A stretch of 64,000 nucleotides of DNA from Streptomyces atratus (lineage in GTDB: Bacteria; Actinomycetota; Actinomycetes; Streptomycetales; Streptomycetaceae). The position numbers were made by a program, and so were the translations under genes. The DNA lies in contig NZ_BMRN01000001.1 of NCBI RefSeq assembly GCF_014648655.1, positions 124,001 through 188,000 of the forward strand, in the 5' to 3' direction. Under the pieces are notes generated by a model that was given only the letters and a program-made list of their open reading frames with translations, had not been told where the DNA came from and made no database searches. Below are positions 6,271-62,276 of this stretch, piece after piece (position 1 is the stretch's first letter; each line of letters begins with the position of its first letter).

Positions 6271-6358
6271 AGCACTTCTCCTTCCGGTCCCTCCCAGTCT
6301 TCGGGCTGCGGCGCCTGGAATCGTCGTCGGCAGTGACGAACCGTGACTGCATACTTCG

Positions 6359-25619: not shown

Positions 25620-25761
25620 GGGTTTCTCCTAGGTTCGGGAGGGCGCCGGGTCGTACGCGCGGATTGCGCGTCCGTGAACCGGGGCCGACGTACCAGTCTG
25701 CCAGGACCGGCCGTATCTCCCAAAACCGGGGGCGGGCCGCAACTATTCCCGGCCCGCCCTG

Positions 25762-43023: not shown

Positions 43024-43260
43024 GATTGTCAGATTAGCCACTTGGACTGACAGCCGACCTTCACCCGGTGTGGACCCGTCGATCTTCCGTGTGCAGCCAG
43101 AGCCGACCGACACGGCTCTCAGCGCTGACAGATCTCTATTTCCTTCCGCTCCGATGGTGCCTCGTCCGTCACACCCAGCCGTTACGATCGAGGAGTCAGC
43201 CGATTGAGCGAAACGGCCGACATGCGAAAAATCAGGATGAAAGCAAGGCGGGGACGGCGT

Positions 43261-46200
43261 ATGCGGGAAGGCCGCTGGGAAACGGTCACGGATTCCGAGT
43301 TCCCGCATGAGCGTCGTGGCCTTGAAGCCATCCGCACGGAGCTTCCTGACAACGATCCGTGGCGCGCCTGGTCGAACTTCACGTTCACGGCGAACACCGG
43401 TCACGTCCGGGAAGTGGACCTGCTGGTGATCGCTCCCGGCGGCGTCTTCCTGATCGAGCTGAAGGACTGGCACGGCTCTCTGGACTCCCGCAACGGAACC
43501 TGGTTGCAGACCCAGCCCAGGGGGCGGCAGATCGCGCACGGCAACCCGCTGCACCTGGCGAACAAGAAGGCCAAGGAGCTGGCCTCGCTGCTGGAGCCGG
43601 AGCTGAACGGTGAGCGGGTGTGGGTCTCGGAGGCGGTCTGCTTCACCGACTCCTCACTGAAGGTCCGGCTCCCCGCTCATGACCAGCACGGTGTCCATAC
43701 CGTCCCGCGACTCATCAAGATGCTGAAGGAGCCCCCGCACTTCGAGCAGCGGCGGATCGATGCCCCGCGCTCGCGGAGGATCGCTGCGGCTCTGGGCCGG
43801 GTCGGCATCGCGCGCAGTGACGCGGAGTACAAGGTCGGCCCGTACCTGTTGCACCGGAAGTCGTTCGACTCCGGCCCCACGTGGGCGGACTACCTGGCCC
43901 GGCACAGCGATCTGCCGGAGGCTGCCCGGATCCGCGTCTATCTGCGTGAGCGCGGCTCGGACGCCGGACTGCGGGCCTCGGTGGAGCATGCGGCTCGACG
44001 CGAGGCCGCGGTGTTGCGGCGCTTCCGGCACCCGGGTGTGGTGCAGCTCAAGCAGTACGACCCGTCCGGGCATTCGGCCGGCCCTGCGTTGATCTTCGAC
44101 TACGACCCGAGGACGCTGCGGCTGGATGAGTATCTGGCGCAGTACGGAGAGAAGCTGGACATCCTCAGCCGGATGGCGCTGGTGCGTCAGCTGGCCGAGA
44201 CGGTGCGTTCGGCGCACAGCAGGCGTATCTATCACCGCAGCCTGGCCGCGCGTGCGATCCATCTGATGCCGCGTGCCCGGGGCGGCGCGGCCGGGGCGGA
44301 CAGCGAGGACGCCGGCTGGCTCAGCCCGTATCTGCAGATCTCCGACTGGCAGGTCGCCGTCCAACGCGGTTCCGAGCACGGTGGCCAGAGCGCCGGGGAC
44401 CGGCTGGCACCGACGACGTTCTCGCGGGCCGGCGCACACATCGCCGAGGGTGCGGACCCGTATCTCGCTCCCGAGCTGACCGCGCTCAAGGCCGATCCGG
44501 TCGCTCTGGATGTGTACGGCCTCGGCGTACTCACCTACCTGCTGGCCACCGGTAAGGCACCCGCGGCCAGCCAGGCCGAACTACTGGCCCGCTTCGAGGC
44601 GGGCGAGGGGCTGCGGCCGAGCGCGGTGGTCGACGGTCTTTCGGAGTACATCGACGAGCTGGTGCAGGCGGCCACCGCGTACAGCGTCTCCGACCGGCTG
44701 TCCTCGGTGGACGACTTCCTGGAAATGCTGGAGGTCGTCGAGGAGGAACTGACCGAGCCCGCTCCCGCCGAGCCCGCACCGGCGCCTGTCCCCGAGAAGA
44801 ACCCGTTGGACGCGGTCGCGGGCGACGTGCTGGCGGGCCGCTGGGAGGTGAAGCGCCGGCTGGGTACGGGCTCGACGAGCCGCGCGTTCCTGGTACGGGA
44901 TCTTTCGGCCGGGCCGGAGGTCCGCCTCTCGAAGTCACTCGCGGTGCTGAAGGTGGCGCTCTCCGGCAGCAGGAATAACGTGCTGGTACGTGAGGCCGAG
45001 GTGATGAGTCGGCTGCGCCCCGATTCGCGCATCATCCGGCTGATCGAGCCGGAGCCGCAGCGCATAGCGGAGCGCACGGTCCTCGTCATGGAGTACGTGG
45101 GCGACGAGCGCGCAGCCGAGGTCGAGCCCGCAGCACCCGGCACGACGAAGAATCGGCGGCGCGAGGAAACCGTCGCCCGACAGCTGCGCGAGTTCGGCCG
45201 CCTGTCGGTGGACCAGCTGGAGGCGTACGGGGATTACCTGTTCGGCGCGGTGGACTTCCTTGAGGGGGAGGGCGTCTGGCACCGCGACATCAAGCCGGAC
45301 AACATCGCGATCCGGATCCGCCCGAACCGCACCCGCGAGCTGGTGCTGATCGACTTCTCCCTCGCCGGGTATCCGGTACAGGAGACCGGCGCGGGTACGG
45401 ACGGCTACCTGGACCCCTTCATCGGCACGCTCACGGACCGCTCGGTGTACGACGCGCATGCCGAACGGTACGCCGTGGCGGCCACGCTCCACGAGATGGC
45501 TTCGCGCGAGCTGCCGGTGTGGGGCGACGGCCGGGTGTCCGCGCGCCAGACCGACCCGGAGCTGGAGCCGTACCCGAAGATCGCGGTGGATGCTTTCGAT
45601 CCGGCGGTGAAGGACGGTCTGCTGGCCTTCTTCCGCAAGGCCCTGCACCGGGACGCGTCCCAGCGCTTCCGCGATCTCAAGCCGATGCGCGATGCCTGGA
45701 AGAAGATCTTCCTGGCGATGGACGAGGCCAAGCCCTCGTCACGGCGCTCACGTCACGCGGTTGCCGCCGAAGTGGAAGCGGCGGCCCCGGCGCCGGGTGC
45801 CGCGATCGCGGACGCCGAGGCGGAGACCGCCGAGCAGCAGCGCGACCGGCAGGCCGCCCAGGCGGACCGTTCGACTCCGGTGTCGGCTTCGGGTCTGAGC
45901 CCGGCGGCCGAGTCGTTCGTCTACGGGCTGCGCGTCAATACGGTCGGCGAGCTGCTCGACTACAGCCAGCGCCAGCTCGTGAACGCTCCCGGCCTCGGTG
46001 CGAAGACACGCAAGGAAGTCCTGGGCCGGATCAAGGAATGGCGCCAGCGGCTCGCCGAGCGCCCGGCCGCTCCCCTCACTCCCGAGGGCCGCAAGGAGGC
46101 GAAGGCCGAACTCTCGGCCGCCGAAGCAGCGGTCGCGGGTGCCATGTCCGAGGCCGGCGGCGGAGGTTCGCTGCCGGAACGTGCCCTGCGCAGCGTCAGC

Positions 46201-47961
46201 CTGGACACCCTGGCGACCGTCTTCGTACCGGAGCTGAAGAAGGACGGGTCGAACCGCAACGAGTGCGAGATGGTCCGGCTGCTGCTGCGCCTGCCCAATG
46301 AGCACGGCGAGCTGCCCACCGAGGTCGGTGTCTGGCCGAAGCAGAAGGATGTCGCGGACGCGCTCGGCCTGTCGGCGGGCCGTATCCCGCAGATGCTGAA
46401 GACCCAGCGCACCCGCTGGAAGAAACATCCGACGGTACGGGCGCTGCGCGCCGAGATCCTGGAACTGCTGTATTCCATGGGCCGGCTCGCGTCGGCCGCG
46501 GAGATCGCGGACGCCCTCGCTGTGCGCCGCGGCACCCAGCTCCAGGAGCGCGAGCAGCGCCGGGCACTGGCCCTGGCCGCGGTCCGCGCGGTGGTGGAGG
46601 TCGAGCAACTCGTCCCGCAGGAGGGCGAGTTCCGGCACGCTCCGAACCGGGACGCGGCCGACGAGGGCATGGGTGCGGGGCTGCTGGCTCTGGAGGTCGG
46701 CGAGGAAGACGCACCTCAGACTCCGTCGGCACCGGGTCTGCTGGACTACGCACAGCGGCTGGGACGGGTCGCGGACCGGCTGGCGAAACTGGACACACTG
46801 CCGACCGCGGCGACGGTTCTCGCCGAGCTGAGCGCGATCTCCGCGCCGAGCGGGGTCGTGGAGTGGGACGAGCGCCGCCTGGCGGAGGTCGCGGCAGCGG
46901 CAGCGCGGAACGCGGCGGCGACACCCCGGCTGGAGATATATCCACGGAATCTTCCGCTGGTACGGGCGCTGCGGCTGACCCAGGCCGGGCTGGTCCGCAT
47001 GATTCCCGGCGTGGCGGAGGCCGACCAGCCGGGGCTGACCGGCGCCGATGTGCACGAGCGGGTACGGGCACGTTTCCCGGAGCTGTTGAACGAGCGCGGC
47101 GGACACGCGCTGCCGACCGGCGGCCGGCTGACAAAGGCGTTGCAGGAGGCCGGATTCGACCTGGTGCTGTCCACCCGCGAGCACCCCCGCACGCTGCGAT
47201 ACCTGCCGCGGAAGACAAACCTTGCGTCGAGCTTCCTCTCCTCGGACGGAAAGCGGCAGGCGACCGGCACGATCGCCGCACGCCGCTATTCCGACGATCC
47301 GCAGCTCGCGGGCGCGGTCGCGGCGGAGGAACGTCTGCTGTCCTCGGCCCGGCGGGACGGATTCCGGGTCCTGACGGTACGGACGGGTCTGGCACACCAT
47401 GCGGTACGGGAGTTGGCGGGCGACCGGTTCGACGCCGGGGTGGTCTCGGTGACCGAGCTGTTCCTGGGCGCCCTCCACGAATTGGTCGACGCCCGTCCGA
47501 AGCCGACCTGGGAGACGATCCTGCGGGCGGATGTGGCCCCGCCGGGTTCGAAGGGCGCGATGAAGTTCGCCGAGTACGCGCGCACGGCATGGGGCGCGGT
47601 GGAACCCCGGGTGGGCGAGCTGCTGTCGGCCCCGGGGCCCAAGGCGCCGGTGCTGCTCACGGACGCGGGGGTGCTTGCCCGTTACGACGCGATGGGCATC
47701 CTGGAACGGCTGGCCGAGCGGGCGAGGAACGGCGGGCGAGGCCTGTGGCTGCTGTGCCCGCAGAGCGACCCGGCACGCCCGCCGCGGTTGGGCGCGACGG
47801 CTGTGCCGTATCAGGCGGGGCTGGGTGAATGGGTGGCCCTGCCGGACTCGTGGGCGTCGAACGCCCACCGGGCCGACGAGCTGAAATTGCAGGGCAGGCG
47901 AATCGCTCTGCCGACGACTACGGCTACGCCGACTGCGACAAGGGGAGAAGACCAGAAGTGA
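43261..47961 (+). CDS. pglW: Pgl/BREX type 2 serine/threonine kinase PglW
   Basis: 1566 residues from the ATG at 43261 (MREGRW, the start I recall for the family, GGGGA six bases upstream). A TTG at 43204 with GAGGAG eight bases before it and an ATG at 43222 are serious alternatives. Order: NERD nuclease-related domain (EVDLLVIAPGGVFLIELK, residues 51-68), a degenerate kinase (about 190-500, HRSLAAR in place of HRD.K), an intact kinase with LGTGSTSRAFLV near 533, HRDIKPDN near 674 and DFS instead of DFG near 697, a helix-hairpin-helix region like the RNA polymerase alpha C-terminal domain (about 880-930), and a long C-terminal region. It overlaps pglX by four bases. Confidence 0.93.
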   Translation: MREGRWETVTDSEFPHERRGLEAIRTELPDNDPWRAWSNFTFTANTGHVREVDLLVIAPGGVFLIELKDWHGSLDSRNGTWLQTQPRGRQIAHGNPLHLANKKAKELASLLEPELNGERVWVSEAVCFTDSSLKVRLPAHDQHGVHTVPRLIKMLKEPPHFEQRRIDAPRSRRIAAALGRVGIARSDAEYKVGPYLLHRKSFDSGPTWADYLARHSDLPEAARIRVYLRERGSDAGLRASVEHAARREAAVLRRFRHPGVVQLKQYDPSGHSAGPALIFDYDPRTLRLDEYLAQYGEKLDILSRMALVRQLAETVRSAHSRRIYHRSLAARAIHLMPRARGGAAGADSEDAGWLSPYLQISDWQVAVQRGSEHGGQSAGDRLAPTTFSRAGAHIAEGADPYLAPELTALKADPVALDVYGLGVLTYLLATGKAPAASQAELLARFEAGEGLRPSAVVDGLSEYIDELVQAATAYSVSDRLSSVDDFLEMLEVVEEELTEPAPAEPAPAPVPEKNPLDAVAGDVLAGRWEVKRRLGTGSTSRAFLVRDLSAGPEVRLSKSLAVLKVALSGSRNNVLVREAEVMSRLRPDSRIIRLIEPEPQRIAERTVLVMEYVGDERAAEVEPAAPGTTKNRRREETVARQLREFGRLSVDQLEAYGDYLFGAVDFLEGEGVWHRDIKPDNIAIRIRPNRTRELVLIDFSLAGYPVQETGAGTDGYLDPFIGTLTDRSVYDAHAERYAVAATLHEMASRELPVWGDGRVSARQTDPELEPYPKIAVDAFDPAVKDGLLAFFRKALHRDASQRFRDLKPMRDAWKKIFLAMDEAKPSSRRSRHAVAAEVEAAAPAPGAAIADAEAETAEQQRDRQAAQADRSTPVSASGLSPAAESFVYGLRVNTVGELLDYSQRQLVNAPGLGAKTRKEVLGRIKEWRQRLAERPAAPLTPEGRKEAKAELSAAEAAVAGAMSEAGGGGSLPERALRSVSLDTLATVFVPELKKDGSNRNECEMVRLLLRLPNEHGELPTEVGVWPKQKDVADALGLSAGRIPQMLKTQRTRWKKHPTVRALRAEILELLYSMGRLASAAEIADALAVRRGTQLQEREQRRALALAAVRAVVEVEQLVPQEGEFRHAPNRDAADEGMGAGLLALEVGEEDAPQTPSAPGLLDYAQRLGRVADRLAKLDTLPTAATVLAELSAISAPSGVVEWDERRLAEVAAAAARNAAATPRLEIYPRNLPLVRALRLTQAGLVRMIPGVAEADQPGLTGADVHERVRARFPELLNERGGHALPTGGRLTKALQEAGFDLVLSTREHPRTLRYLPRKTNLASSFLSSDGKRQATGTIAARRYSDDPQLAGAVAAEERLLSSARRDGFRVLTVRTGLAHHAVRELAGDRFDAGVVSVTELFLGALHELVDARPKPTWETILRADVAPPGSKGAMKFAEYARTAWGAVEPRVGELLSAPGPKAPVLLTDAGVLARYDAMGILERLAERARNGGRGLWLLCPQSDPARPPRLGATAVPYQAGLGEWVALPDSWASNAHRADELKLQGRRIALPTTTATPTATRGEDQK

Positions 47962-50900
47962 TCGACCGCACGGCGTTGAAGACGGACCTGATCAAGCAGG
48001 TCAAGGCGGTCGAGGTGGACCTCGGCAAGCAGGTCGCGGAGGGCGAGAAGGTCCTCAAGCCGCTGCGCACGGAGTACGCGAAGACGTGCAAGGCAGTTGC
48101 CTCGCCGGACGAGGCCCCGAAGTGGGGAGCCTGGCTGGAGGGTCGGCTGGCGGAGCTTTCGGCGGACCAGGCGGATGCCGTGGAGGCGGCGGAGGCGGTC
48201 GCGGGCCGGCTGCGGGCGGAGTACGACGAGGCACGGGGCCTGGGCCGTACAGCGGCGACGTGGAACGCGTGGCTGGACGAGCGCGTCACGCAGGTCGCGG
48301 TGGCGTGGGTGCTGGGCACGGTGTTCGTCCGCTTCTGCGAGGACAACCGCCTGATCCCGGACCCGTACCTGACGGGCCCGGAGCAGGAGCGCCGCGACCT
48401 CGCGGAGGCACGGTACGCCCAGTACGTGGAGGAGACCGAGGACCCCACGTACCGGGGCTGGCTGCTGCGCGCCTTCGACGAGCTGGGCGCCGGCCAGGCG
48501 GGCAAGCTGTTGTTCCGCCAGGACCGCAATCCGCTGTACCAGATCCCGCTGTCGCACGACGGGGCGCGGGCACTGGTGGAGTTCTGGCGGGAGCGTCGGG
48601 AAGCCCAGGAGTGCGAGGGGAGCGAGGACGGAGCGCTGCTCCTGGTCCACGACTTCACAGACCCGCTGAACGAGGACGGTACGGAGGGGTGGGACACCCG
48701 CTTCCTGGGTGACCTGTACCAGGACCTGTCGGAGGCGGCGCGGAAGACGTACGCGCTGCTCCAGACCCCGGAGTTCGTGGAGGAGTTCATCCTCGACCGG
48801 ACGATGGACCCGGTGGTCCGGGAAATGGGCGGCCGGTTCAACGAGCTGAAAATGATCGACCCGACGTGCGGCTCAGGCCACTTCGTGCTGGGCGCGTTCC
48901 GGCGGCTGGTGCGGCTGTCGGCGGAACGCCAGCCGGGACGCGATCGGCATGAGCGCGTACGGGACGCGCTGAACTCGGTGCACGGCGTGGACATCAACCC
49001 GTTCGCGGTGGCCATCGCGCGGTTCCGGTTGCTGCTTGCGGCCATGGCTGCGGCGAATGTGCGGACGCTGGCTGATGCGGGGCGGTATGACTGGCCGATC
49101 CACTTGGCGGTGGGCGACTCGCTGATTCAGGACCGACAGCAGGAGCTGGAGCTGATCAGCCTGGAGTCGGGGAAGCGGCTGGTTGATTTCGCTTACGCGA
49201 CGGAGGACCTGGATGACTATCCGGGAATTCTGGACCGGGGGCGGTATGACGTGGTGGTGGGGAACCCGCCTTACATCACTGTCAAGGATAAGAAGCTGAA
49301 TGCACTGTATCGAGATCTGTACGCATCCTGCGGGGGAACATACGCCTTGTCCGTTCCATTCGCTGAGAGGTTTTTTCAGCTGGCAAGGATAGGAGGGATC
49401 GACGGCCGCGGGTACGGCATGGTTGGCCAGATCACCGCAAGCTCTTTCATGAAGCGAGAGTTCGGCATTAAGCTGGTTGAAGAATACTTCGCACATAAGG
49501 CCGAGTTGACAGAAGTAATCGATACATCAGGAGCCTATATTCCAGGGCATGGGACGCCAACGGTCATCCTTGTGGGACGGCGTAGGTCAGGCAGCGGGCG
49601 CGTGTCAACAATTCGTACGGTACGAAGCGTTCAAGGTGAGCCCTGGACTCCAGAAAATGCAAAAGATGGTCTCGTATGGAGGGCCATTGTTGACCAGATC
49701 GACGAACCTGATTCGGCTAGTCGGTGGGTATCCACAGGAGACCTGGACAGGCAGCGCTACTTCGGTCATCACCCTTGGATTCTTTCTGACGGCGGGCTGG
49801 AGGTAGTTGAGAAGCTCGCAGACTCCAACTCGCTCCGCTTGCGAAGCGCAATCAATCCCCCCATCGGACGAGCTGTTCGGGTTGGAGCGGATGCAGCATA
49901 TCTTCGCCCTCTGCGAATGGTTAACAGAACGCCAGCTGCTAGCAAAGGCCTGCGCCCTTTCATGACCGGCGAGGTCGTGCGGGATTGGCAAGCAGAGCCG
50001 GAAGAAGCAATCTGGTTTCCCTATGCCCCAGCCCTTGCAGTGGATGATCTAGCATACGAGCTGTGGCCAATGCGTCGACTGCTGGAAGCCCGCGGCACCT
50101 TCCAGGGAGACATGTCGGCAGCCGGTCTGCATTGGTGGGACTACATGCAGTACACGGCATCGGCGTACAAGACGCCACTCTCACTCACTTTCGCTTTCGT
50201 GGCTACGCACAATCACTTCGCCCTAGACCGTGGCGGGAAGGTCTTCAACCGCTCTGCACCTGTAATCAAACTGCGCGAAGGAGCAAGCGAGGAGGAACAC
50301 CTTCAATTGGTGGCACTACTCAACAGTTCGACTGCGTGTTTCTGGCTTAAGCAGGCAAGCCACAACATGGGCAGCACTGTAGACGCAAAGGGTGCCCGGC
50401 AAAGCACCCTCCCTTTTGAAGATTTCTTCCAGTTCAACGGCACCCCCATGGGGGATTTCCCTCTTCCAGCTGCCTATCCCACCACTCTGGCACCGAAACT
50501 TGATGCTCTGGCTCAGGAGTTCGCCGCTACAAGCCCATCAACCGCAACCACCGTTGAAGCACAGGCCCCCACAGCCAACGTCCTCCGGGAAGCCAGCATC
50601 AAATGGCTCTCCATCCGCGCCAAGATGATCGCCCTCCAAGAGGAGCTGGACTGGCAGATCTATTCCCTCTACAAGCTGCACTCCGAAGACCTACGCGCCC
50701 CCGAATCCGAGGTCCCTGAAATTGCCCTCGGCGAGCGAGCGTTCGAGATTGTGCTTGCTCGACGAGTAGAGAAGGGCGAGGCATCCGGCGAGTGGTTTAA
50801 GCGGCACGGTTCCACGCCCATCACCGAGATGCCCGACCACTGGTCCGACGCCTACAAGGCCGTCGTCCAGAAGCGCATCGATGTCATCGAGTCGTCCCGA

Positions 50901-51740
50901 GCCATCGGCATGGTGGAGCGGCCTGAATACAAGCGACGCTGGGCCACCGAGGGTTGGGACGTGTTCCAGGAGCGGGCCCTCAAGTCGTGGTTGCTCGACC
51001 GCATAGAAAACCGCGATCTCTGGTTCCAGGATGGGCAGCCGACCCTCCTCACTCGCACCCAGCTCACCAGCGCCCTCGCTCTCGACGAGGACTTCGTGTC
51101 CGTCGCCGAGCTGTACGCGCCCCGCAAGGAGTTGGCGACCGTCGTCGCCGAACTCCTCGCGGACGAGCATGTGCCGTTCCTCCCCGCCCTCCGCTACAAG
51201 CCTTCCGGCTTGAAGAAGCGCGCCGACTGGGAGCACGTCTGGGAGCTTCAGCGCGAGGAGGACGCAGCCCCGGACGAGCCGGCCAAGCGGAAGATCCGGG
51301 ACGCCATCCCCGTACCGCCGAAGTACACCTCGGCCGACTTCCTCAAGCCGTCCTACTGGCGGGCTCGCGGCAAGCTGGACGTTCCGAAGGAGCGGTTCAT
51401 CTCCTACGCGACGGGCGCATTCTCGGGCGTCCCCGACCTGTTCGGCTGGGCAGGCTGGGATCACCGGGAGCAGGCGCAGGCGCTGACCACGTACTTCACC
51501 AACGATGACGGGCTGTCCTCCGAGGAAATGGTTCCGCTCCTCGCGGGCCTGCTCGAACTTCAGCCCTGGCTCAGCCAGTGGCACAACGAGTTCGACCCGC
51601 TGTACAGCGGTACGCCCGCTGCCTTCTTCGCCGGTTACCGTTCCGCCCAGCAGGGCGAGCACGGACTGACGGACGAAGACCTGCGCGCCTGGCGCCCCGC
51701 CCCGGCCGCCCGTCGCGGTCGGCGCCCGGCAGGCGGCTGA
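47958..51740 (+). CDS. pglX: Pgl/BREX type 2 adenine-specific DNA methyltransferase PglX
   Basis: 1260 residues from a GTG that overlaps the pglW stop (GTGA) and follows GGGGAGAAG. The N6-adenine methyltransferase motif I (DPTCGSGHFVLGAF) is at residues 301-314 and motif IV (NPPY) near 436. In Pgl, PglX marks DNA, and in S. coelicolor it is reported toxic without PglZ. Between about 49270 and 50560 (residues about 437-867, the segment after NPPY where target recognition would lie) GC falls to roughly 45-55% in the lines I counted, against about 70% in flanking lines. No homopolymer run longer than six is seen. Confidence 0.94.
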   Translation: MIDRTALKTDLIKQVKAVEVDLGKQVAEGEKVLKPLRTEYAKTCKAVASPDEAPKWGAWLEGRLAELSADQADAVEAAEAVAGRLRAEYDEARGLGRTAATWNAWLDERVTQVAVAWVLGTVFVRFCEDNRLIPDPYLTGPEQERRDLAEARYAQYVEETEDPTYRGWLLRAFDELGAGQAGKLLFRQDRNPLYQIPLSHDGARALVEFWRERREAQECEGSEDGALLLVHDFTDPLNEDGTEGWDTRFLGDLYQDLSEAARKTYALLQTPEFVEEFILDRTMDPVVREMGGRFNELKMIDPTCGSGHFVLGAFRRLVRLSAERQPGRDRHERVRDALNSVHGVDINPFAVAIARFRLLLAAMAAANVRTLADAGRYDWPIHLAVGDSLIQDRQQELELISLESGKRLVDFAYATEDLDDYPGILDRGRYDVVVGNPPYITVKDKKLNALYRDLYASCGGTYALSVPFAERFFQLARIGGIDGRGYGMVGQITASSFMKREFGIKLVEEYFAHKAELTEVIDTSGAYIPGHGTPTVILVGRRRSGSGRVSTIRTVRSVQGEPWTPENAKDGLVWRAIVDQIDEPDSASRWVSTGDLDRQRYFGHHPWILSDGGLEVVEKLADSNSLRLRSAINPPIGRAVRVGADAAYLRPLRMVNRTPAASKGLRPFMTGEVVRDWQAEPEEAIWFPYAPALAVDDLAYELWPMRRLLEARGTFQGDMSAAGLHWWDYMQYTASAYKTPLSLTFAFVATHNHFALDRGGKVFNRSAPVIKLREGASEEEHLQLVALLNSSTACFWLKQASHNMGSTVDAKGARQSTLPFEDFFQFNGTPMGDFPLPAAYPTTLAPKLDALAQEFAATSPSTATTVEAQAPTANVLREASIKWLSIRAKMIALQEELDWQIYSLYKLHSEDLRAPESEVPEIALGERAFEIVLARRVEKGEASGEWFKRHGSTPITEMPDHWSDAYKAVVQKRIDVIESSRAIGMVERPEYKRRWATEGWDVFQERALKSWLLDRIENRDLWFQDGQPTLLTRTQLTSALALDEDFVSVAELYAPRKELATVVAELLADEHVPFLPALRYKPSGLKKRADWEHVWELQREEDAAPDEPAKRKIRDAIPVPPKYTSADFLKPSYWRARGKLDVPKERFISYATGAFSGVPDLFGWAGWDHREQAQALTTYFTNDDGLSSEEMVPLLAGLLELQPWLSQWHNEFDPLYSGTPAAFFAGYRSAQQGEHGLTDEDLRAWRPAPAARRGRRPAGG

Positions 51741-51757
51741 GGGATCGCGTCCGCGTA

Positions 51758-51797
51758 TACGGCGTACAGGTCAGACCGACATGACCTGTACGTCGTA
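51758..51797. terminator. Bidirectional terminator hairpin between pglX and vapC-like gene
   Basis: A 16-bp stem with one G-T pair (TACGGCGTACAGGTCA against TGACCTGTACGTCGTA) and an 8-base loop overlaps the end of the PIN-domain gene and begins 17 bases after the pglX stop. Confidence 0.75.
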
Positions 51798-52145
51798 CTT
51801 CGGGATCCAGCGGTTCCGGGTGACCAGCACCATCCCTTCGGCCTGCGCCTGCGCGATCAATATCCGGTCGAAGGGATCGGTGTGCACCATCGGCAGTCGG
51901 CCTGCCCGTACCCCGTGTGCGGCCGTGATGGGCAGGCCCCTGAATTGGAGATCACGTACCTGCTCGGCCAGGTCTCCAGGCCCTTCGAACCTGCCGAGGA
52001 ACTGCTTGACGGTGATCTCCCACGGTGAGACCGCGCTGACGTACACAGCAGGTTCGGTGTCCAGTAGTTCCTTGAACGATGGGGACAGTCGCGGCGAGTC
52101 GTCGAGCCACCACATGACCACGCGCGTATCGAGCAGAAGTCGCAT
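51771..52145 (-). CDS. PIN-domain toxin, VapC-like
   Basis: 124 residues (MRLLLDTRVVMWWLDD). PIN-domain acidic residues are present: D6, Glu in SPWEITVK near 43 and Asp in HTDPFDRILIAQA near 91-94. VapC-type toxins are RNases that cleave tRNA or rRNA. The ATG overlaps the antitoxin stop (TGATG). The last codons form half of the terminator hairpin shared with pglX. Confidence 0.88.
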   Translation of the reverse strand: MRLLLDTRVVMWWLDDSPRLSPSFKELLDTEPAVYVSAVSPWEITVKQFLGRFEGPGDLAEQVRDLQFRGLPITAAHGVRAGRLPMVHTDPFDRILIAQAQAEGMVLVTRNRWIPKYDVQVMSV

Positions 52146-52399
52146 CAACGCATCCCAAGCGCGTCAGCCACCGAGGCGGGCGCATCGTCGAAGTTGGCGG
52201 GGATGTGGACACGCCCTCGGAGCGAGCCTCGGCCGGGCCGCTGCACCTTCGGCCGTGCGGGCAGCATCCTCGCCACCGGCTCGCCCGCCCTGCTGATCAC
52301 GACCACATCGCCGCCGACCATCTGCATCAGGGTTCCCGGAAATCGCGGCCTGGCGTGGTGGGCGTAGTGCTGACGGAACCTCTTCCATAGCACCTTCAC
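52145..52399 (-). CDS. Phd/VapB-like antitoxin
   Basis: 84 residues from a GTG that overlaps the stop of the upstream ATPase gene (GTGA). The motif GGDVVVISRAGEPVARMLPA (residues 33-52) is the conserved core of Phd/YefM-type antitoxins. The N-terminal third (KRFRQHYAHHARPRFPG) diverges from the usual DNA-binding half, so autoregulation may be altered. It directly precedes the PIN toxin gene. Confidence 0.78.
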   Translation of the reverse strand: MKVLWKRFRQHYAHHARPRFPGTLMQMVGGDVVVISRAGEPVARMLPARPKVQRPGRGSLRGRVHIPANFDDAPASVADALGMR

Positions 52400-53070: not shown

Positions 53071-53256
53071 GACGCTCCTTGAAGGTCGGCGTGTTGAAGC
53101 AAGTGGCTGACCAGAACGTGCTGTTGGTCGGCTCGCCACTCACAGCGTGCCCGTACACTTCGTACTCGCGCAACGTTGAATGGATTCCCATCGCTCAATT
53201 CACTCGTTCGTGCATCCGGGGCGCGATAGCCCTCTGCGACTGGTAAGGAGTGACGT

Positions 53257-54129
53257 ATGCCATCCGTGAAACCATCCACCGTCCTGGGCCGCCAACTCGG
53301 CGACGAACTACGCCGCTTCCGCGAGAAAGCAGGTCTCTCCACCGCCGAGGCAGCCGAGGTTCTCGACTGCACCAAGGGCAAGATCAGTCGCATCGAGAAC
53401 GGTCATGTCCCTGTCCGCACACCGGATCTGGTCGCCCTGATACATGCGTATGACGTGTCGGACCCGGAGGCTCGCGACCGCCTTGCGTCGCTTGCCCGCA
53501 CAGCCAACCGTCGCCGCCGTGAAGGCTGGTGGCACCAGTACGGTTCGGTACTCGCTGACACGTATCGCGACTACAACGAGATGGAGACGATCTGCGACAG
53601 CATCAAGACGTTCCAGGTGCAGCTAATCCCCGGACTCCTCCAGACGCCGGAGTACGGAAGGGCCGTAACCGTCGCATCCCGCGCTTGGCAAACCGCAGAG
53701 GAGATCGACCGGTTCGTACAGGTGCGACTGGCCCGGCAGGAACGTCTGGCTGGCGATGATCCTTTGGAACTCTGGGCCGTGCTTGCGGAGGGAGTGCTCC
53801 ACCAGCAGGTCGGAGGACAGACCGTTATGCACGACCAATTGGAGCACGTGGCCAACCTCGCTGAGCAACCCAACATCACTGTTCAGGTACTGCCGTTCTC
53901 CCGTGGAGCGCACCCAGGTATGTTCGGTCCGTACCTGCTGCTGAGCTTTCCGCGGGTGTCAGCGCTCGATCTCGTACTGACGGAGACTCCAACCGGCAAC
54001 ATCTGGATGGAACGGGAGTCCGAGGTCGCTCAATACCGCGATCTCTTCGACGACGCTCGTACCTCTGCGTTGCCGCCAACGGAATCACTCAGCCTGATCC
54101 GACGCATCGCCAAGGAGCACAGACCATGA
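53257..54129 (+). CDS. XRE-family regulator with DUF5753 domain
   Basis: 290 residues; ATG with AAGGAG upstream. An N-terminal helix-turn-helix (LRRFREKAGLSTAEAAEVLD, then GKISRIENG, residues 12-50) is followed by DUF5753 (about 100-285). This is the WhiJ-like regulator type, abundant in Streptomyces and often paired with a small DUF397 protein that overlaps by ATGA, as here. Base composition is somewhat less GC-rich than the pgl genes. It may control the neighbouring genes; unproven. Confidence 0.93.
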   Translation: MPSVKPSTVLGRQLGDELRRFREKAGLSTAEAAEVLDCTKGKISRIENGHVPVRTPDLVALIHAYDVSDPEARDRLASLARTANRRRREGWWHQYGSVLADTYRDYNEMETICDSIKTFQVQLIPGLLQTPEYGRAVTVASRAWQTAEEIDRFVQVRLARQERLAGDDPLELWAVLAEGVLHQQVGGQTVMHDQLEHVANLAEQPNITVQVLPFSRGAHPGMFGPYLLLSFPRVSALDLVLTETPTGNIWMERESEVAQYRDLFDDARTSALPPTESLSLIRRIAKEHRP

Positions 54130-54329
54130 CCCAGGACCGCCTCACCCTGCCCGACCTTGCGGGAACTGCCTGGCGCGTCAGCAGCTTCAGCGGAGGGCAG
54201 GGGGAGTGCGTCGAGGTAGGCCACAACATCCCCCACCTCGTCCCCGTCCGCGACAGCAAGCGCCCCACCGGCCCTGTGATCGCCTTCAGTCCCGACGCCT
54301 GGCACACGTTCATCAGCGATCTGGGCTGA
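54126..54329 (+). CDS. DUF397 protein
   Basis: 67 residues, the whole of one DUF397 domain (WRVSSFSGGQGECVEVGHN ... VRDSKRPTGPVIAFSPDAW). It starts within the stop of the XRE gene (ATGA) with AAGGAG upstream. DUF397 proteins are the small partners of WhiJ-like regulators and are thought to modulate DNA binding by them. Confidence 0.92.
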   Translation: MTQDRLTLPDLAGTAWRVSSFSGGQGECVEVGHNIPHLVPVRDSKRPTGPVIAFSPDAWHTFISDLG

Positions 54330-54462
54330 ATCAACCGCACTGAGGGGCAGGCGCCCCTGGTCCCCCCTGGACAGGGCCGCCCCACGACGCACCCGCGGCC
54401 CCGCCCCGGTCCCCCGTGCCACCCAGTAGCACACCGCGCCACAACCCGCGTACCGTGGCCCC

Positions 54463-54732
54463 ATGAGCGCTCAGCCAGAGATCACCCAGCGCGATCTCCG
54501 TAACCGGTCCAAAGAGATCATGGACGCCGTCCAGGGCGGGCAGTCGTTCACCGTGACCCGGGACGGGCACCAGATCGGTGAGCTGATTCCGTTGCGGCGA
54601 CGCCGGAGGTTCGTCCCGCGCGAGGAGTTCGCCGGCATGTCCCGTACCGCTCCGGATATCTCGCTGGACGCCTTCCGTGCCGATCAGGACCGTACGGCCG
54701 AGCAGGGAACGGACGACCCCTATGCCCGCTGA
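54463..54732 (+). CDS. Phd/YefM-type antitoxin
   Basis: 89 residues. The N-terminal half has the Phd pattern (ITQRDLRNRSKEIMDAVQGG then FTVTRDGHQIGELIPL). The C-terminal half is acidic and would wrap the toxin. It overlaps the following PIN-domain gene by 11 bases. Confidence 0.9.
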   Translation: MSAQPEITQRDLRNRSKEIMDAVQGGQSFTVTRDGHQIGELIPLRRRRRFVPREEFAGMSRTAPDISLDAFRADQDRTAEQGTDDPYAR

Positions 54733-55207
54733 GCCCGGCATGACGCCGTCGCCCGTCGCGTTCCGGCAGGGGCTGCTCGACACCAACATCATGATCCTTC
54801 GCAGGTGGATCGACCCTGCCGAGCTGCCCGCCGAGATGGCGATCAGCTCCATCACCCTGGCCGAGCTCTCCGCCGGGCCGCACGAGGTCCGGCGGAACGA
54901 GGAGCAGTCCGACTACGACGAGCACGCCGAGCGGGCCAGGAGGCTCGATGTGCTCCAGCGGGCGGAGAACGAATTCGATCCCATCCCGTTCGGTGTGGAA
55001 GCCGCCCGTATCTACGGCAGGGTCTGCGCCGCCGTGATCGGCATGGGCCGCAAGCCGAGGCGTCGCATCGCGGATCTGATGATCGCGGCTGTCGCCGTCG
55101 CCGAGGAGCTTCCCCTGTTCACCACCAACCCGGACGACTTCAAGGGGCTGGACGGTCTCCTCACCGTGGTACCGGTCACGCGACCCAAGATTCTCCACGA
55201 TCGGTGA
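54722..55207 (+). CDS. PIN-domain toxin, VapC-like (second)
   Basis: 161 residues from the ATG at 54722 (an ATG 18 bases later is possible). PIN residues: Asp in LLDTNIMI near 20, Glu in SITLAELS near 47, and Asp in RRIADLMIAA and TNPDDF. This is a predicted RNase toxin, co-transcribed with its antitoxin. It ends 115 bases before pglY and on the same strand, so transcription may continue into pglY. Confidence 0.9.
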   Translation: MPAEPGMTPSPVAFRQGLLDTNIMILRRWIDPAELPAEMAISSITLAELSAGPHEVRRNEEQSDYDEHAERARRLDVLQRAENEFDPIPFGVEAARIYGRVCAAVIGMGRKPRRRIADLMIAAVAVAEELPLFTTNPDDFKGLDGLLTVVPVTRPKILHDR

Positions 55208-55322
55208 CGCGACAGCGATAGCGCCCAGCCGGGCGGGAGGCTCGCGAAAGCCGCCTCTGACCAGTCCCTCGTACCATGCATGTCCGAGGGAAAGACGGAA
55301 TGGAACGGAAGCAGTAGACCTC

Positions 55323-58300
55323 ATGGCCCCCAACGCGTCCCAAGCCCCTCTCCTCCGCGACGTCATCGACATCAAGACGTCGATCTCCACCTCCGACTTT
55401 GTTCTGAAGCTCGCCGAGGCGGTCAGCGAGGAGGGCACGGCCCTCGCACTGCGGGACTACGTCGTGACCGAGCGGCTGCTGGAGAACTTCGACGAGGCGC
55501 TCGGCCTGATCAAGGCGGCGCTCGACGGGCACACCTCGAAGGCCGCGTATCTGCACGGTTCGTTCGGTTCCGGTAAGTCGCACTTCATGGCTGTGCTGCA
55601 CGCCCTCCTGCGTGGGGACCCGTCGGCGCGGGCCCGCGCCGACTTCGATTCCGTGCTCGGCAAGCACGAGTGGCTGGATGGTGAGCGCAAGAAGTTCCTG
55701 CTGGTGCCGTACCACATGCTCGGGGCGAAGTCCCTGGAGCAGCGGGTGCTCGGCGGGTACGTCAGTCATGTCAAGGCGCTGCACTCGGACGCGCCGACGC
55801 CGCAGGTGTACCGGACCGACTCCCTCTTCGAGGACATCCGCTCGCACCGGCAGCGGATGGGCGACGAGAAGTTCATCGAAGGACTCGCGGGTGCGGACAC
55901 GGGCACCGCTTCCCCGGATTACGAGGACGGTGACGACGACTGGGGCGAGCCGTTCGCCTGGACGTCGGAGCTGCTTTCCAAGGCGCTCGCCGCCGAGGAG
56001 CTGGACGGCGGCGAGGTCAATCTGGACCTGGTCAATCCGAGTACGCCGGCCGAGCTGCGGGCCAAGCTGGTGCATGACGCGAGTGCCACCTGGTTCCCCG
56101 GGTTTGCCCGCAACGCAGCCGAGGACGAACACGGTTTCATCTCGCTGGACGCCGGTCTCGCGGTGATCGCCGAACATGCGAAGTCGCTCGGCTACCACGG
56201 GCTGATCCTCTTCATGGACGAGCTGATCCTGTGGCTCGCCAACCGTGTCCACGACCAGAAGTTCGTCTCCCGTGAAGCGGACAAGATCACGAACTTCGTG
56301 GAGGGCGCCGACTCACGGCGGGCCGTCCCGATCGTGTCGTTCATCGCGCGCCAGCGCGACCTGCGCGAGCTGGTCGGTGAGGAGATCTCCGGCGCCGCCG
56401 AGGCCGCCATCCAGGACAGCCTCCGGCTCGCCTCCGGCCGCTTCGACACGATCACCCTGGAGGACCGCAACCTTCCCCAGATCGCCCACGCCCGGCTCCT
56501 CAAGCCGAAGGACGCCGAAGCCGCCGCCAAGCTGGATGCCGCCTTCGCCAAGGTCAAGCGGGTCGGGCCACAGGTGTGGGACGTACTGCTGGGGTCGGAC
56601 GAGGGGACGACCGGGGCGGACGAGGAGTCGTTCCGGCTGACGTATCCGTTCACGCCCGCGTTCATGGACACTCTGGTCCACATCTCCTCCGCGCTCCAGC
56701 GTTCCCGTACCGGTCTGAAGCTCATGGGCCAGCTGCTGGCCGACCATCGGGACGACGCGACGCTGGAGAATCTGATCCCGCTCGGCGATCTGTACCCGGT
56801 GATCGCGGACGGTGGCGACAAGCCGTTCGTGGACAGTCTGAAGGTGGAGTTCCAGGCCGCGGACAAGCTGTACCGCGCCAAGCTGCGGCCGCACCTCCTG
56901 GCCACGTACGAGATCACCGAGGAGGACATCGAGCGCTACCGGCACCGGCGCGAATCGGTCACCGATCCGCAGCTCGCCAACCGGTGCAAGGGCTTCATCG
57001 GTGACGACCGGCTCATGTGCACCCTGCTGCTGTCCGCCCTTGCGCCGAGTGTGCCCGCCCTGCGGGACCTCACGATCCGGCGGCTCGGCGCGCTCAACCA
57101 CGGTTCGGTGCTGTCGCCGATTCCCGGCGCCGAGGTCGGCGTCATCAAGGCGAAGGTCGACGAGTGGGCGTCGCGCTTCGCCGAGATCAAGGCGACCGGC
57201 ACCGGTACCAACGCCGGTGTACGGCTCGAACTGGCCGGGGTGGACGTCGACTCCGTGATCGCCAACGCCGAAGTCAACAACAGCCGGCCCAACCGCCGTG
57301 CCCTCGCCAAACGGCTGCTCGCCGAGGAGCTGGGGCTGTCGCTCCAGGAGCGGCTGGTCGCGGACGAGCTGCCGCTCGTCTGGCGCGGGTCGAACCGGAC
57401 GGTGGAAGTCGTCTTCGGCAATGTCGCCGACCCCGACGAGCTGCCCGACCACGAGTTCTCCCCCAGCCAGGACGGGCTGTGGCGCCTGGTCATCGACCTG
57501 CCCTACGACGAGGGCGAGTACGGGCCGATCGAGGACGCCAACCGCATGCGTGAACTGCGCGCGCTGCCCGGTGTCCACCCCCGTACCGTCGCCTGGATTC
57601 CGACGCATCTGTCGGCCGCCCGGTTCAAGGACTTCCAGCGGCTGGTCGTCATCGACTACACGCTGGCCGACCAGCGGCGCTTCGACACGATGTACGCGCG
57701 GCATCTCAACGCCGACAACCGGGCCCGTGCCAAGGTGCTGCTCGAAGGGCAGCGCGAGGCGCTCAAGAAGACGGTGAAGGCCGCGTTCAAGCAGGCGTAC
57801 GGCTGCGCGGAGAAGAAGCCGACCGATGTCGACGTGTCGTTCGAGGACCACTTCGAGCCGCTGCCGAACGTTGCCGAGCTGCGGGTGTCCGTCGGGATGA
57901 CCGTGCACGCGGCGGTCCGGCACATCGCGGACAAGCTGCTGACGCACCAGTTCCCCGCCCATCCCGACCTGGACCCGCAGAACACCGGTACCGCCGTCCG
58001 GCCGGCCGATGCCCGTACCGTCTTCGGACACATCAGGGCAGCCGCGGAAGCCGGTGACCGGCAGGCAGAGATCCCGGCCAAGGACCGTGCGGTGATGCAG
58101 CGTGTCGCGGCTCCGCTCGGACTCGGCCGGCAGAAGGAGGCGTACTTCCGGCTGTCGGGCCGCTGGGTGGACCACTTCGGGCTCCAGGCACGCAACGAGG
58201 GCGGGCCGGGTGACCTCAGCGTCGTCCAGCTCACCGAGTGGCTGGACCGGCCCGAGCCGATGGGGCTCGACCCCTTCCTCGCCAACCTGGTCATCGCGTC

Positions 58301-59255
58301 CTACGCGGAGATGGACGACCGGGTGTGGGTGCAGGGCGGGGCGCTGCTGGACCCGGCGCCCGAGCCGTCGGCCGTCAAGCCTCAGTACGCGCTGCGCTCG
58401 CAGCCGCTGCCGGACGAGGAGGTCTGGGAAGAGGCGGGGAAGCGGTTCTGGGACATCTTCGGCGAACGGCCGCCGACGCTGCGCCGCGGCAGGATGGTCG
58501 GCCAGTTCGCGCGGCAGATCAGCCGCCAGGCCCATGCCTACCAGCCGCGCGCAGCCGATCTCGTGCAGGAACTGGAGAGGCGCTCCGTCGTACTCGGTCT
58601 CGACGGGGCGGACGAAACGGGCAGGCTCGCGATCGCCCGGCGCTCGCGCGATCTGCTCGATGAACTGGTCGGACTGGACAGCGGCGCGGCAAGCGGTTCG
58701 GCCGGTGCCAAGCAGATCATCACCGCCTTCGCGTCGTTCGACCTCGGCGAGGTGTCGGCCGGGCGGTACGGCGCTTCGATCAAGCAGGCCGAAATTGTCA
58801 CCACCGCGCTGGTCGGAGCGGCATGGGACATGTTCAAGCTCGCCCCGAAGTACGGTGCCCAGGGCCGGGCGGTGCTGGAGGAGCTGCGTGGAGCCGCGCA
58901 GGCCGATCAGCGCACCACCAAGCTGGAGGACGCGCTCCAGAACGCGCGGGTCTCGATCGTGGCCGTGATCGACCGGAGCGACACGGAGAGCGTTCCGCCG
59001 GTGGCGCCCACACCTGCCACCGCGCCCACGTACAACAACCCGGCCGGCACGCCCAACGACGTCGATCTGAACACCGAGACCAGCCGGCCCCCCGTGCCGA
59101 CCACTCATCCGGCCACGGGCCGCGCCCCGAGGCGTTCGGGCGGTGGCCGGACGACAGCTGCGCGGGCGATCGCCGAACTCCAGGCCGAACTGGCCGGACT
59201 GTCGGCGGCGGAGCCCGACGCGACGATCGAAATCAGCTGGCGAGTCGTGGAATGA
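55323..59255 (+). CDS. pglY: Pgl/BREX type 2 ATPase PglY
   Basis: 1310 residues. Walker [10 protein letters not shown] lies at residues 79-87 and a Walker B-like [15 protein letters not shown] near 293. The rest of the large protein has no other motif I can name, apart from a Pro/Thr-rich linker near 1225-1270 and a helical C-terminal end. PglY (BrxC/PglY family) is the ATPase essential to Pgl/BREX. The ATG at 55323 is preceded only by a weak purine stretch. It ends ten bases before the pglZ start. Confidence 0.94.
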
Positions 59256-59265
59256 GGCGCGTGAA

Positions 59266-62238
59266 GTGAGTACGGCGACGAGCGCGAACGCGTCCACGGA
59301 GACTGCCACGAGCGCGGTGCGGCTCAACAGGGCCACCGTGAAGCAGTATCTGGCGTCGCAGTCCGGCCTTCGGGCCGGCAAGCGCCGGGTGGTGCTGCTG
59401 AGAGCCGCACCGGTGTGGGACGGACCTGCCGAACTGAGCTGGGGCGAGCCCTGGCAGGCGGTCGTCAAGGCCGCGCCGTCGCCCCTGGCCGTGCACGAAC
59501 TGGTCCTGGCCCACCAGGACCGGTCGGCCACAGGTCCCGAGGTGCTGGTGGTGCTGACCGATCAGGAAGAGGCGGAACTCGGCCCCGATCTTCTGGCCAA
59601 GGCGCACAAGCAGCGCGTGAACGCCGTCAACACCTGGGACGTCGTCCGCGAGGCGTTCGGGGCGGTCGACACCGACAGCAGGCTCTTCAAGGAGAACTGG
59701 GCCGCCGAGTCGCTGCTCGATGCCACACCGCCCGGCGGGTGGCCGCAGCTGGCCGGCGGCATACTGACCCGGCGTAAATCGCTCACCGCCCTCGCCCTGC
59801 GAAGGCTGGGTATCGGACGGTACGATCCCGACCGCGATCAGCACGTGTCCTTCCCGGAGTTCGCCACCGGACCGGGCGCGGGCACCGACCCCGGTTCCGG
59901 GGGCCTCGTCGCGGGCACTGCCGCGAACGGTGACGGACTCGACGTACACACACTGCTGCGGTGGTCCCTGACACCCGGCGGTCCGGAGCGTCTGCTGTCG
60001 CTGCGGACAGCCGAGCGGAACGGGCTGACGCGTTTCCTCGGTGAGGAGGACCAGACCGGACGTGCCGGACAAGCGCTGCTCGCGCTCGTCGGCGCGGAGC
60101 ACGGGCCCGACGCCGTGGCGTTCGGTCTCGTCTGCGCCGCTCTGTGGGGACACGCCGATGCGACGGCGGACGCGGAGGACTACCGGGCCAGGGGGCGGGC
60201 CGAGCGTTGGTTCGGGGAAGAGCCGCCCGCGCGGGGTGAGGCGCTGGATGCCCTCGCGGCCGCCTTCGGCCGGAGCTGCGAGAGCTTCGTCTCCGGGCTC
60301 CTGCTGACCGGACGGACCGGTCAGGACGAGGTGGCGGCGGCCGCGCGCCGGCAGAGCGGCGCCGCTCTCGACCGGGCTGCTTCCCTCGTTCGGCAGTTCG
60401 GTGCGGAACGGGCGGCCCGGACAAGTCCCGTACTGCTGGAGGGCCTTGAGGCACGGTTCAGCGAGGTGGGCAGAGCGCTGTCGTCGGGGGACGCCGGGGT
60501 GACAGCGCAGGCAGTGGGCGCACTCGACGAACACCGGCAGGCCGTGGACCCCGATGCCCGGACGCGTATCGAGCGGGCGAAGATGGCCCAGCGACTGACT
60601 CAGTGGCTCGCAAGTGGGCCGGTGGCGGAGTGCGAAACCGTCGCGTCCGGCGTCGGGCGTCATGTCGCGGAGACCGGCTGGGTGGATCTGGCGCTGGAGC
60701 ACATCGAGGCGGGGGGCGACCCCGATGCCACCCTGAGGTCTGCCTACGACACGCTGTGCACCTCAGTGCGGGCCGAGCGGCGCGAGATCGACCGGCACTT
60801 CGCCAAGGCACTCGCCACCTGGACGGCGAACGGCACCGATCCCGGTTCGATGCTCACGGTCGAGACCTTCCTGCCCACCGTTGTCGCGCCCGTCGTGAAG
60901 GCCAAAGGGCGGCGCGTTCTGCTGCTCGTCCTGGACGGGATGAGTGCGGCGATCGCCGCTGAGCTGGGCGAGGAGCTGCGTGAGCACTGGGTCGAGTACG
61001 ACCCGGTACCGAAGGCCAAGGACTCCCCGCAGCGCCGCGGTATGGCTGCGGCGCTGCCCACCGTCACATCGGTCTCACGGACCTCACTCTTCGCCGCCCG
61101 GCTGATGACGGGCACACAGGCGGATGAGAAGCGGCTCTTCCCGAACCACCGATTCTGGGGCGGCGAGAGTGTGGCGGTGTTCCACAAGGATGATCTGAGG
61201 GGCGAGAGCAGCGGTGACCCGGTCGGTCCGGAGCTGCACGACGCACTGGTCGGGGACCGTACCCATGTCGCGGTGGTGCTCAACACGATCGACGACCGTC
61301 TCGCCAAGGAGCAGAAGCTCGGGGACGGCGCCTGGCGGCTCGGCGAGATAGGGCGGTTGCGGCAACTGCTCCGGCTCGCCGCCGGGCAGGGGCGTGCGGT
61401 GATCCTGGTCAGCGATCACGGCCACGTCATCGACAGGCACGGTGTGAAGATCGATGCGTCGGGTGTGCGGTCGGCCAGGCACCGGAGCGTCGAGGGCGCC
61501 CTTCAGGAATCGGAGATCGTGCTCTCGGGACCGCGTGTCGTCGCACCGGAGTCCGGTGACGAGATCGTGGCCCTGTGGGACGCCGACTCGCGATACACCG
61601 CTCAGAGGGCCGGCTACCACGGCGGAGCGGCTCCGGCCGAGTTCACCATTCCGGTGCTGGCCTTTCTGCCCTTCGGTGCCGAGCCGCCGCACGGCTGGCG
61701 GGAGCTGGGCAGTCAGCAGCCACCGTGGTGGTCGCTCACGCCCCGACCGGCAGAGCCGTCGCACTCCGCTGCGGCCGACATCGCCGCGCCGAAGAAGCCG
61801 TCCAAGCGTGCGAAGGCCGACGCCGTATTCGCCCGGAGTCATGAATCGCTCTTCGATGTGGTGCTGGCACCCGTCGCCGAGGAGCCCCGGGCGGACAGTG
61901 CGATGGTCTCCGTCGAACTGAGGTTGCCGGACGACGCCCTGGTCACGGCTCTGTTCGCGTCCGAACTTTTCGAGACGCAAGTGAAGGTGCTGGGCCGCAA
62001 ACCGAATCTGGCACAGGTGGAGAAGGCCGTCCGCGCGCTGCTGGATGCGGGAGGCACTCTTCCGGTGACCGCGCTCGCCCAGCGTGCGGGTGTACGCGCC
62101 AGTGGGGCGGACGGCTTCGGAGCCGTACTGCGGCAACTGCTGAACTACGACAGCGCACAGGTACTGGAGAACCTGCCTGATGGCCGGACGCTTCGGCTCG
62201 ACAAGGAACTGCTGCGAGAACAGTTCGGGTTGGGGTAG
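59266..62238 (+). CDS. pglZ: Pgl/BREX type 2 alkaline-phosphatase-like protein PglZ
   Basis: 990 residues from a GTG with GAGG eight bases upstream; upstream codons in this frame overlap pglY and are not coding. The PglZ domain shows metal-site motifs [11 protein letters not shown] near residue 550, the presumed nucleophile region [12 protein letters not shown] near 597 and [12 protein letters not shown] near 716. PglZ is the signature protein of BREX and Pgl; in S. coelicolor it offsets PglX toxicity. The gene ends at a hairpin shared with the convergent gene. Confidence 0.94.
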
Positions 62239-62244
62239 GAACCT

Positions 62245-62276
62245 CGGGCCGGGCTGTCGTACGGCAGCCCGGCCCG
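62245..62276. terminator. Bidirectional hairpin after pglZ
   Basis: A perfect 12-bp stem (CGGGCCGGGCTG with its complement) and 8-base loop lies between convergent genes. Confidence 0.8.

Follow-up and report, generated by a model that had tools for sequence, protein, structure and literature searches.

Where does a type 2 bacteriophage exclusion (BREX) locus of Streptomyces atratus end, and what are the two genes that interrupt it? The question is raised by a window of 64,000 nucleotides (bases 124001-188000 of contig C1), in which a preliminary description had placed, at 43204..62276, the four core genes of the phage growth limitation (Pgl) system, with brxD and brxHI missing from the window. 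On the contig beyond the window end, the locus proves to be a type 2 BREX/Pgl system with all six genes (pglW, pglX, pglY, pglZ, brxD and brxHI), and the pglZ-brxD junction holds two opposite-strand genes, one for a DUF262 protein, then an overlapping one for a CBS-HEPN protein. BREX-2 itself is already known. The antisense cassette, which splits pglZ from brxD, is truncated by the window end and was absent from the preliminary description. From the sequences, we lean by a small degree towards reading the locus as a complete BREX-2 that carries the cassette as a predicted backup, in which the DUF262 protein would sense through nucleoside triphosphate (NTP) hydrolysis and the CBS-HEPN protein would cut RNA.

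A complete six-gene BREX-2 system

The claim that pglW, pglX, pglY and pglZ are intact was borne out. All four are open and, in the profile search that had been named as a check, the proteins match BREX-2 families far above the curated NCBIfam cut-offs (PglW, NF033442, 1681 bits against 990; PglX, NF033451, 1678 against 400; PglY, NF047891, 2191 against 1700; PglZ, NF033446, 910 against 200), calls with which PADLOC agrees. The key motifs listed earlier were likewise present in the translations: VWHRDIKPDN and IDFS in the second kinase of PglW, DPTCGSGHF and NPPY in PglX, the Walker motif GSFGSGKSH in PglY and SDHGH in PglZ. The first PglW kinase reads HRS, without the catalytic Asp; Pfam places a NERD domain at 36-148 and a Pkinase domain at 547-822. 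The genes form two coupled pairs, as described, 3.6 kb apart with unrelated genes between them. The probable start codons are GTG 47958 for pglX, which overlaps the pglW stop, and GTG 59266 for pglZ, 10 nt past pglY. Both starts were read by eye from the sequence, the longest open reading frame (ORF) starts at 47829 (pglX) and 59143 (pglZ) being mechanical only. The nearest named relatives agree with the Streptomyces setting.

That brxD and brxHI are outside the window is literally correct, but a system without them is not: both lie directly downstream, beginning 1.3 kb and 2.6 kb past the window end. A BREX lacking them is ruled out by the scores of BrxD (655 bits against a cut-off of 350, with the match at contig 189336-190592, within its ORF) and of BrxHI (1067 bits with PADLOC PDLC02503), whose ORF start overlaps the brxD end. 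Among the NCBIfam matches listed, BrxHI met other helicase models, all below cut-off. The impression of a four-gene core arose because the window ends before these two genes; with both downstream, the six-gene system is therefore complete. This gene content is ordinary, because 91%, 88% and ~80% of 1309 type 2 taxa retain BrxHI, BrxD and PglW, respectively (PMC12839542; here and below, citations refer to passages of the papers).

An antisense cassette between pglZ and brxD

The CBS-HEPN protein has 354 residues and carries a CBS pair; its C-terminal R324-N-x3-H329 is invariant in 21/21 aligned proteins. It resembles DS-11 in the CBS pair, in the C-terminal HEPN R-x4-H (by motif) and in covering nearly the full length of the DS-11 model. 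DS-11, in which CBS and HEPN lie in one protein, defends E. coli and requires its HEPN residues and CBS Y157 (PMC13092281). The protein encoded here differs in scoring below the cut-off of that model, in being paired with a DUF262 protein and in being embedded in BREX, whereas DS-11 is reported as a single-protein system (PMC13092281). No PADLOC model matched it.

The DUF262 protein has 623 residues (PF03235, 94.7 bits). DGQQR (106-110) and T63, which is aligned with S42 of BrxU, are invariant in 21/21 proteins; because DGQQR is kept, NTP binding is expected. BrxU (PDB 7p9m) was the sole PDB fold match at E<=0.001 (E 3.6e-8), and a profile match to it was obtained at E 0.0029. In BrxU, the substitutions S42A, Q101A, R102A, D474A and H475A abolish defence, S42, Q101 and R102 belonging to the NTP part and D474 and H475 to the HNH part (PMC8565348). 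BrxU, too, is a DUF262 protein with DGQQR kept inside a BREX locus. It is a GmrSD-family type IV enzyme inside type 1 BREX, whereas the cassette is antisense and in type 2, and, unlike BrxU, the cassette DUF262 protein lacks the HNH catalytic His, its nuclease apparently being supplied by the second gene. PADLOC gave partial matches only, the best candidate families being PDC-M55C (70 bits), HEC-05 (51) and NsnA (39).

The DUF262 ORF and brxD stand head to head with 86 bp between them. At the other end, a perfect 12-bp inverted repeat separates pglZ from the convergent CBS-HEPN gene, and 62276, where the earlier annotation stopped, is the edge of this hairpin. The hairpin is a possible two-way terminator for pglZ and the cassette. 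Simple scans for promoters and terminators in L025:200-3400 returned 0.

Recurrence of the cassette in the pglZ-brxD slot

We collected two sets of loci. A named set of 22 loci was fetched by PglZ, and 21 were kept after a 3.2-kb contig (L007) had been dropped; being picked by likeness to this PglZ, the set is biased towards its clade. Both cassette genes lay antisense between pglZ and brxD in 15/15 of its Streptomyces loci, and in none of the six from other genera (Microtetraspora, Spongiactinospora, three Nonomuraea and Micromonospora), where pglZ adjoins brxD. The genus survey was an even draw of 199 genomes; in 42 of them PglZ exceeds the cut-off, giving 44 loci when the two contig pieces of G198 are taken as one. 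The cassette was found at 12/44 (with brxD on a separate contig in G152), an AbiU/AIPR gene at 4/44 (AbiU 607-619 bits, 4/4 tested) and other content at 3/44 (a PASTA protein, a small unknown protein and one cassette remnant). The junction was closed (35-200 bp) at 23/44, and two of the 44 were uninformative (G184, with brxD elsewhere, and G057, truncated). Three further cassettes came from the part of a class-wide draw inside the genus (G361, G370 and G413). At the protein level the pair fills the slot in 27 distinct loci, and all embedded cases seen agree in strand and order.

The class survey covered 345 genomes and gave 34 PglZ loci outside the genus, 32 of them with brxD beside it on the contig (the other two, G386:C7 and G354, lack it there and were set aside). 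In 29/32 the pglZ-brxD gap measures 14-124 bp, in one 409 bp, and in two ~960 bp, with no gene recognised there. None of these junctions has a DUF262 match at E 1e-30.

The AbiU/AIPR genes (581-582 aa, in L060, L062, L063 and L064) fill the pglZ-brxD gap of four further genomes of the genus, in another BREX-2 clade; each is a single sense-strand gene of unrelated sequence. The slot of G465 holds a 666-aa antisense gene with no Pfam or PADLOC match, and the gap in G182 (L051:4172-4696, +) a 174-aa protein that looks GIY-YIG-like by eye and has no Pfam or PADLOC match.

Such variety makes it a serious, though to us less probable, alternative that the pair is an independent passenger, a separate defence system at a tolerated site without functional link to BREX. 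At 10 loci the stretch examined contains the same pair and no BREX genes, so the pair does not need BREX; the slot also takes AbiU, the PASTA protein and unknown proteins, and about half of the genus junctions (23/44) are empty. Against a passenger speak the constant order and strand, the head-to-head arrangement with brxD, which would permit shared regulation, and the rarity of decay, seen as the remnant in G080 and an in-frame TGA in the CBS-HEPN match of G150.

Some CBS-HEPN genes were also met away from the slot. In L045 (G116) a CBS-HEPN fragment (5984-6295) lies ~4 kb from a relative (83%) of the subtilase-type gene found after brxHI in our locus, and may mark a decayed BREX site. L033:4740-6155 (-) and L037:5596-7182 (+) encode CBS-HEPN proteins with neither a BREX nor a DUF262 match nearby. 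Their N-terminal parts differ: one has a RAMA domain and the other matches PDC-S02, a hint that different sensors may be exchanged on the same RNase.

Loss of the HNH motif in partnered DUF262 proteins

DUF262 relatives were gathered from a class-wide search (26/345 genomes at E<=1e-30) and from the genus loci, a partner being a CBS-HEPN profile match (E 1e-5) <=1.5 kb away. The count leaves out L022 and L065, which share contigs with L066 and L013, and L047, whose DUF262 gene runs off the contig; G528 (two fragments) was also dropped. The HNH His directly before I/V-F-P was kept in 0/37 partnered proteins (27 in BREX, 10 at the loci without it). By contrast, all 15 partnerless proteins kept it, and 14/15 the whole motif; in the exception, L110 (G321), which has an in-frame stop, the His before IFP is kept, the first His is R and TN is missing. 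Of the two, the partnered L093 retains just the first. For L020, which the automatic pattern did not fit, the HNH region was read from the alignment. The region reads DVRLIFPK here and D-V/I-R-x-I/V-F-P in most cassette proteins, against D-I-H-H-I-F-P in the relatives (DIHHIFPQ-type in partnerless ones). The DUF262 protein of our locus has no GmrSD_C match and no active DUF1524 HNH (DHIYP-type); weak, sub-cut-off Pfam GmrSD_C matches were found in 5/7 partnerless and 0/7 partnered proteins tested.

In a quick DUF262 tree, HNH columns included and without L110 (in-frame stop) and L112 (split gene, motif intact), two groups of 13 and 22 rows are parted by one branch (Shimodaira-Hasegawa-like approximate likelihood ratio support, SH-aLRT, 100). 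Many independent HNH losses are thus unsupported, because the split between partnered and partnerless proteins follows this one branch.

A decayed HNH leaves the DUF262 protein without a nuclease of its own, as would suit a toxin-antitoxin pair, in which CBS-HEPN would be a toxic RNase that DUF262 neutralises until infection upsets the balance. The overlap of the two ORFs, with the DUF262 gene first, and the invariant HEPN motif would agree with it. We nevertheless consider it unlikely: an invariant DGQQR is superfluous for a plain binding antitoxin, the CBS pair is a built-in switch already, and CBS-HEPN genes without a nearby DUF262 match exist (L033-L045). It is very improbable that DUF262 is still a DNA-cutting type IV enzyme acting through other residues, with CBS-HEPN only regulating it: FPK-W and NKT residues around the HNH are conserved, but the His matching BrxU H475, essential there (PMC8565348), is absent in 37/37 partnered proteins, and the HEPN residues are invariant instead.

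History and selection of the cassette

In a tree of PglZ and PglY, cassette-bearing cores fall in two groups, the second of which has closed loci and AbiU-bearing ones as neighbours. Placing them in one clade is marginal (approximately unbiased (AU) test, p 0.054, quick tree). The free-standing pair L030 groups with the second cassette group in two cassette trees (support 98/96 and 94/86). A single clade of embedded cassettes is not rejected for either gene (AU p 0.237 and 0.241), so that many independent insertions are not established; the cassette may have entered once, with losses, or twice.

The ratio of non-synonymous to synonymous substitution rates (dN/dS) was 0.07-0.15 for both cassette genes in five locus pairs; pglY and pglZ gave 0.12-0.28, and the range for brxD and brxHI was 0.04-0.09. 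Between L048 and L049, CBS-HEPN has a higher value than pglY (0.149 against 0.119). By this measure both cassette genes are under purifying selection and maintained as proteins.

A predicted backup for BREX

In the backup reading that we favour, BREX would act first. Judging from the gene families, it would methylate adenine, with the variable PglX domain recognising the site, and block unmodified phage. The DUF262 protein would be an NTP-driven sensor of infection, perhaps of modified DNA as for BrxU and SspE (PMC10952713), its own nuclease being replaced in trans by HEPN. The CBS pair may read an adenine nucleotide and tune HEPN, and DUF262 would license CBS-HEPN to cut RNA. Cleavage would then halt phage growth when BREX is evaded, for instance by modified DNA, like BrxU beside type 1 BREX, so that the cassette would form a second layer catching phages missed by BREX. 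More tentatively, and a little short of an even chance, the slot may be an exchangeable effector site whose main occupant is a new two-gene system, an HNH-dead DUF262 sensor of BrxU/GmrSD type with an in-trans CBS-HEPN RNase, in which restriction of modified DNA would have given way to RNA cleavage backing BREX.

Several points weigh against these proposals. The CBS-HEPN protein scores 239 bits with the DS-11 model, below the cut-off of 260, although the match spans positions 2-305 of 305. The HEPN assignment, which we consider likely, rests on the motif and this model; the predicted fold (mean predicted local distance difference test (pLDDT) score 81, predicted template modelling (pTM) score 0.47) has only CBS proteins among the fold matches listed. 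The model of the DUF262 protein is weak (mean pLDDT 72, with a weakly predicted N-terminus) and aligns to BrxU with a template modelling (TM) score of 0.38 and a root mean square deviation of 12. DS-11 being one-protein, the DUF262 partner need not be the sensor of CBS-HEPN. On the DUF262 tree the partner and the HNH loss are one historical event, so the counts above are not independent. Finally, besides the pair standing at 10 loci without BREX genes in the stretch covered, the slot also takes genes not known in defence (the PASTA protein in L056), and extra genes lie beside the cassette in L048, L049, L050 and L055.

Relation to known systems

The locus shares with the Pgl system of S. coelicolor its motifs and the coupled pglWX and pglYZ pairs split by unrelated genes (PMC4365076, PMC12839542), the two pgl operons there being 6 kbp apart (PMC4365076). 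It has brxD and brxHI, as most type 2 loci do (PMC12839542). The pglX of S. coelicolor phase-varies through a G8 tract (PMC4365076), which is absent from pglX here; such switching is ruled out for the window's pglX, and no G or C run >=8 occurs anywhere in the window. Runs >=7 were found in 2/45 pglX stretches (G7 in L004, C8 in L072).

Fusions of HEPN to CBS, and HEPN with ParB/DUF262 and an HNH (DUF2081) domain, were described in 2013, as were the HEPN families pEK499_p136 and RloC in a few Pgl operons (PMC3710099); the passages concerned describe neither a pair of CBS-HEPN and HNH-dead DUF262 nor a fixed pglZ-brxD slot. PD-T4-2, for which a review lists both DUF262 and HEPN, is a precedent for this combination, and is not given there with CBS or in BREX (PMC10952713); no PADLOC match to it was obtained for the cassette genes at E 0.001. 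Backup nucleases including GmrSD, HNH and HEPN are reported near BREX generally (PMC12839542), and the main text of that paper mentions neither CBS, DUF262, AIPR nor AbiU, hence no antisense cassette. Judged by titles, abstracts and passages, we found no paper describing this cassette or slot.

What works when the main BREX effector is blocked, and what kills in type 2, are open questions (PMC12839542). A cassette recurring in one slot, within the genus in which Pgl was discovered, makes the idea of a backup effector testable, and offers two natural comparison groups, HNH alive without a partner and HNH dead with CBS-HEPN. It would be a candidate case of a DNA-cutting enzyme turned RNA-cutting through partner exchange.

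PglX variation and neighbouring genes

Table 1. Features of the BREX-2 locus, in window coordinates; L025 coordinates run past the window end.
Feature	Position	Strand	Remarks
pglW	43204..47961	+	NERD domain, pseudokinase, active-looking Ser/Thr kinase, C-terminal half; NF033442
pglX	47958..51740	+	BREX-2 adenine-specific DNA methyltransferase; NF033451; probable GTG start, by eye
pglX hypervariable stretch	49629..50678	+	residues 501-850 from base 48129; probable target recognition domain; GC 0.56-0.61
PIN-domain (VapC-like) gene	51771..52148	-	PF01850 43 bits; pglX/pglY spacer
HATPase_c_2 protein	52423..53070	-	PF13581 47.8 bits; spacer
XRE-DUF5753 regulator and DUF397 gene	53257..54329	+	PF19054 191 bits, PF04149 69 bits; spacer
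Second PIN-domain gene	54677..55207	+	PF01850 41.6 bits
pglY	55323..59255	+	BREX-2 ATPase (BrxC relative); NF047891
pglZ	59266..62238	+	alkaline-phosphatase-fold protein; NF033446; probable GTG start, by eye
Perfect 12-bp inverted repeat	62245..62276		between convergent pglZ and CBS-HEPN gene
CBS-HEPN gene (DS-11-like)	62287..63351	-	NF053863 239 bits; CBS fold; cassette's downstream gene
DUF262/GmrSD_N gene, degenerate HNH	63342..64000, cut by window end; whole L025:1342-3213 (to 65213)	-	PF03235
brxD	L025:3300-4634 (window scale 65300-66634)	+	655 bits
brxHI	L025:4631-6790 (window scale 66631-68790)	+	PADLOC PDLC02503

Residues 501-850 of PglX are 20-66% identical to the two nearest relatives, L010 and L011, against 84-98% elsewhere (50-residue blocks; the pglX start is covered in neither relative). 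As an exception, residues 301-500 are only 60-74% identical to L011, so that divergence from L011 extends past one domain. The GC content of pglX is 0.55-0.61 over 49029-50828 (300-nt steps) and 0.65-0.74 outside. The pattern over 501-850 resembles an exchanged recognition domain, and for this reason these strains probably mark different sites.

In the pglX/pglY spacer (51771-55207), each PIN gene has an antitoxin-like small ORF (by eye), and the two bracket the HATPase/XRE-DUF5753/DUF397 set. The HATPase and XRE matches recur in 13/15 named Streptomyces loci; in L072 and L074 the XRE/DUF397 matches are placed between pglW and pglX. No integrase or att site that would mark an island was identified at the locus, though no systematic search for either was made, and a search with flanking proteins in 26 genomes, its own among them, defined no empty site.

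Upstream, an HNH gene (41482-42834, -; PF13391 HNH_2) is divergent from pglW. Its NF045808 match (104.5 bits, cut-off 180) is a weak likeness to phosphorothioate-DNA restriction enzymes, and it is possibly a type IV enzyme beside BREX. Further upstream in the window, 37957-39681 (+) encodes a 574-aa protein without a Pfam match, present in 4/26 genomes searched, its own included, and 25642-25688 (-) matches the L31-Actinobacteria ribosomal protein leader with 58 bits.

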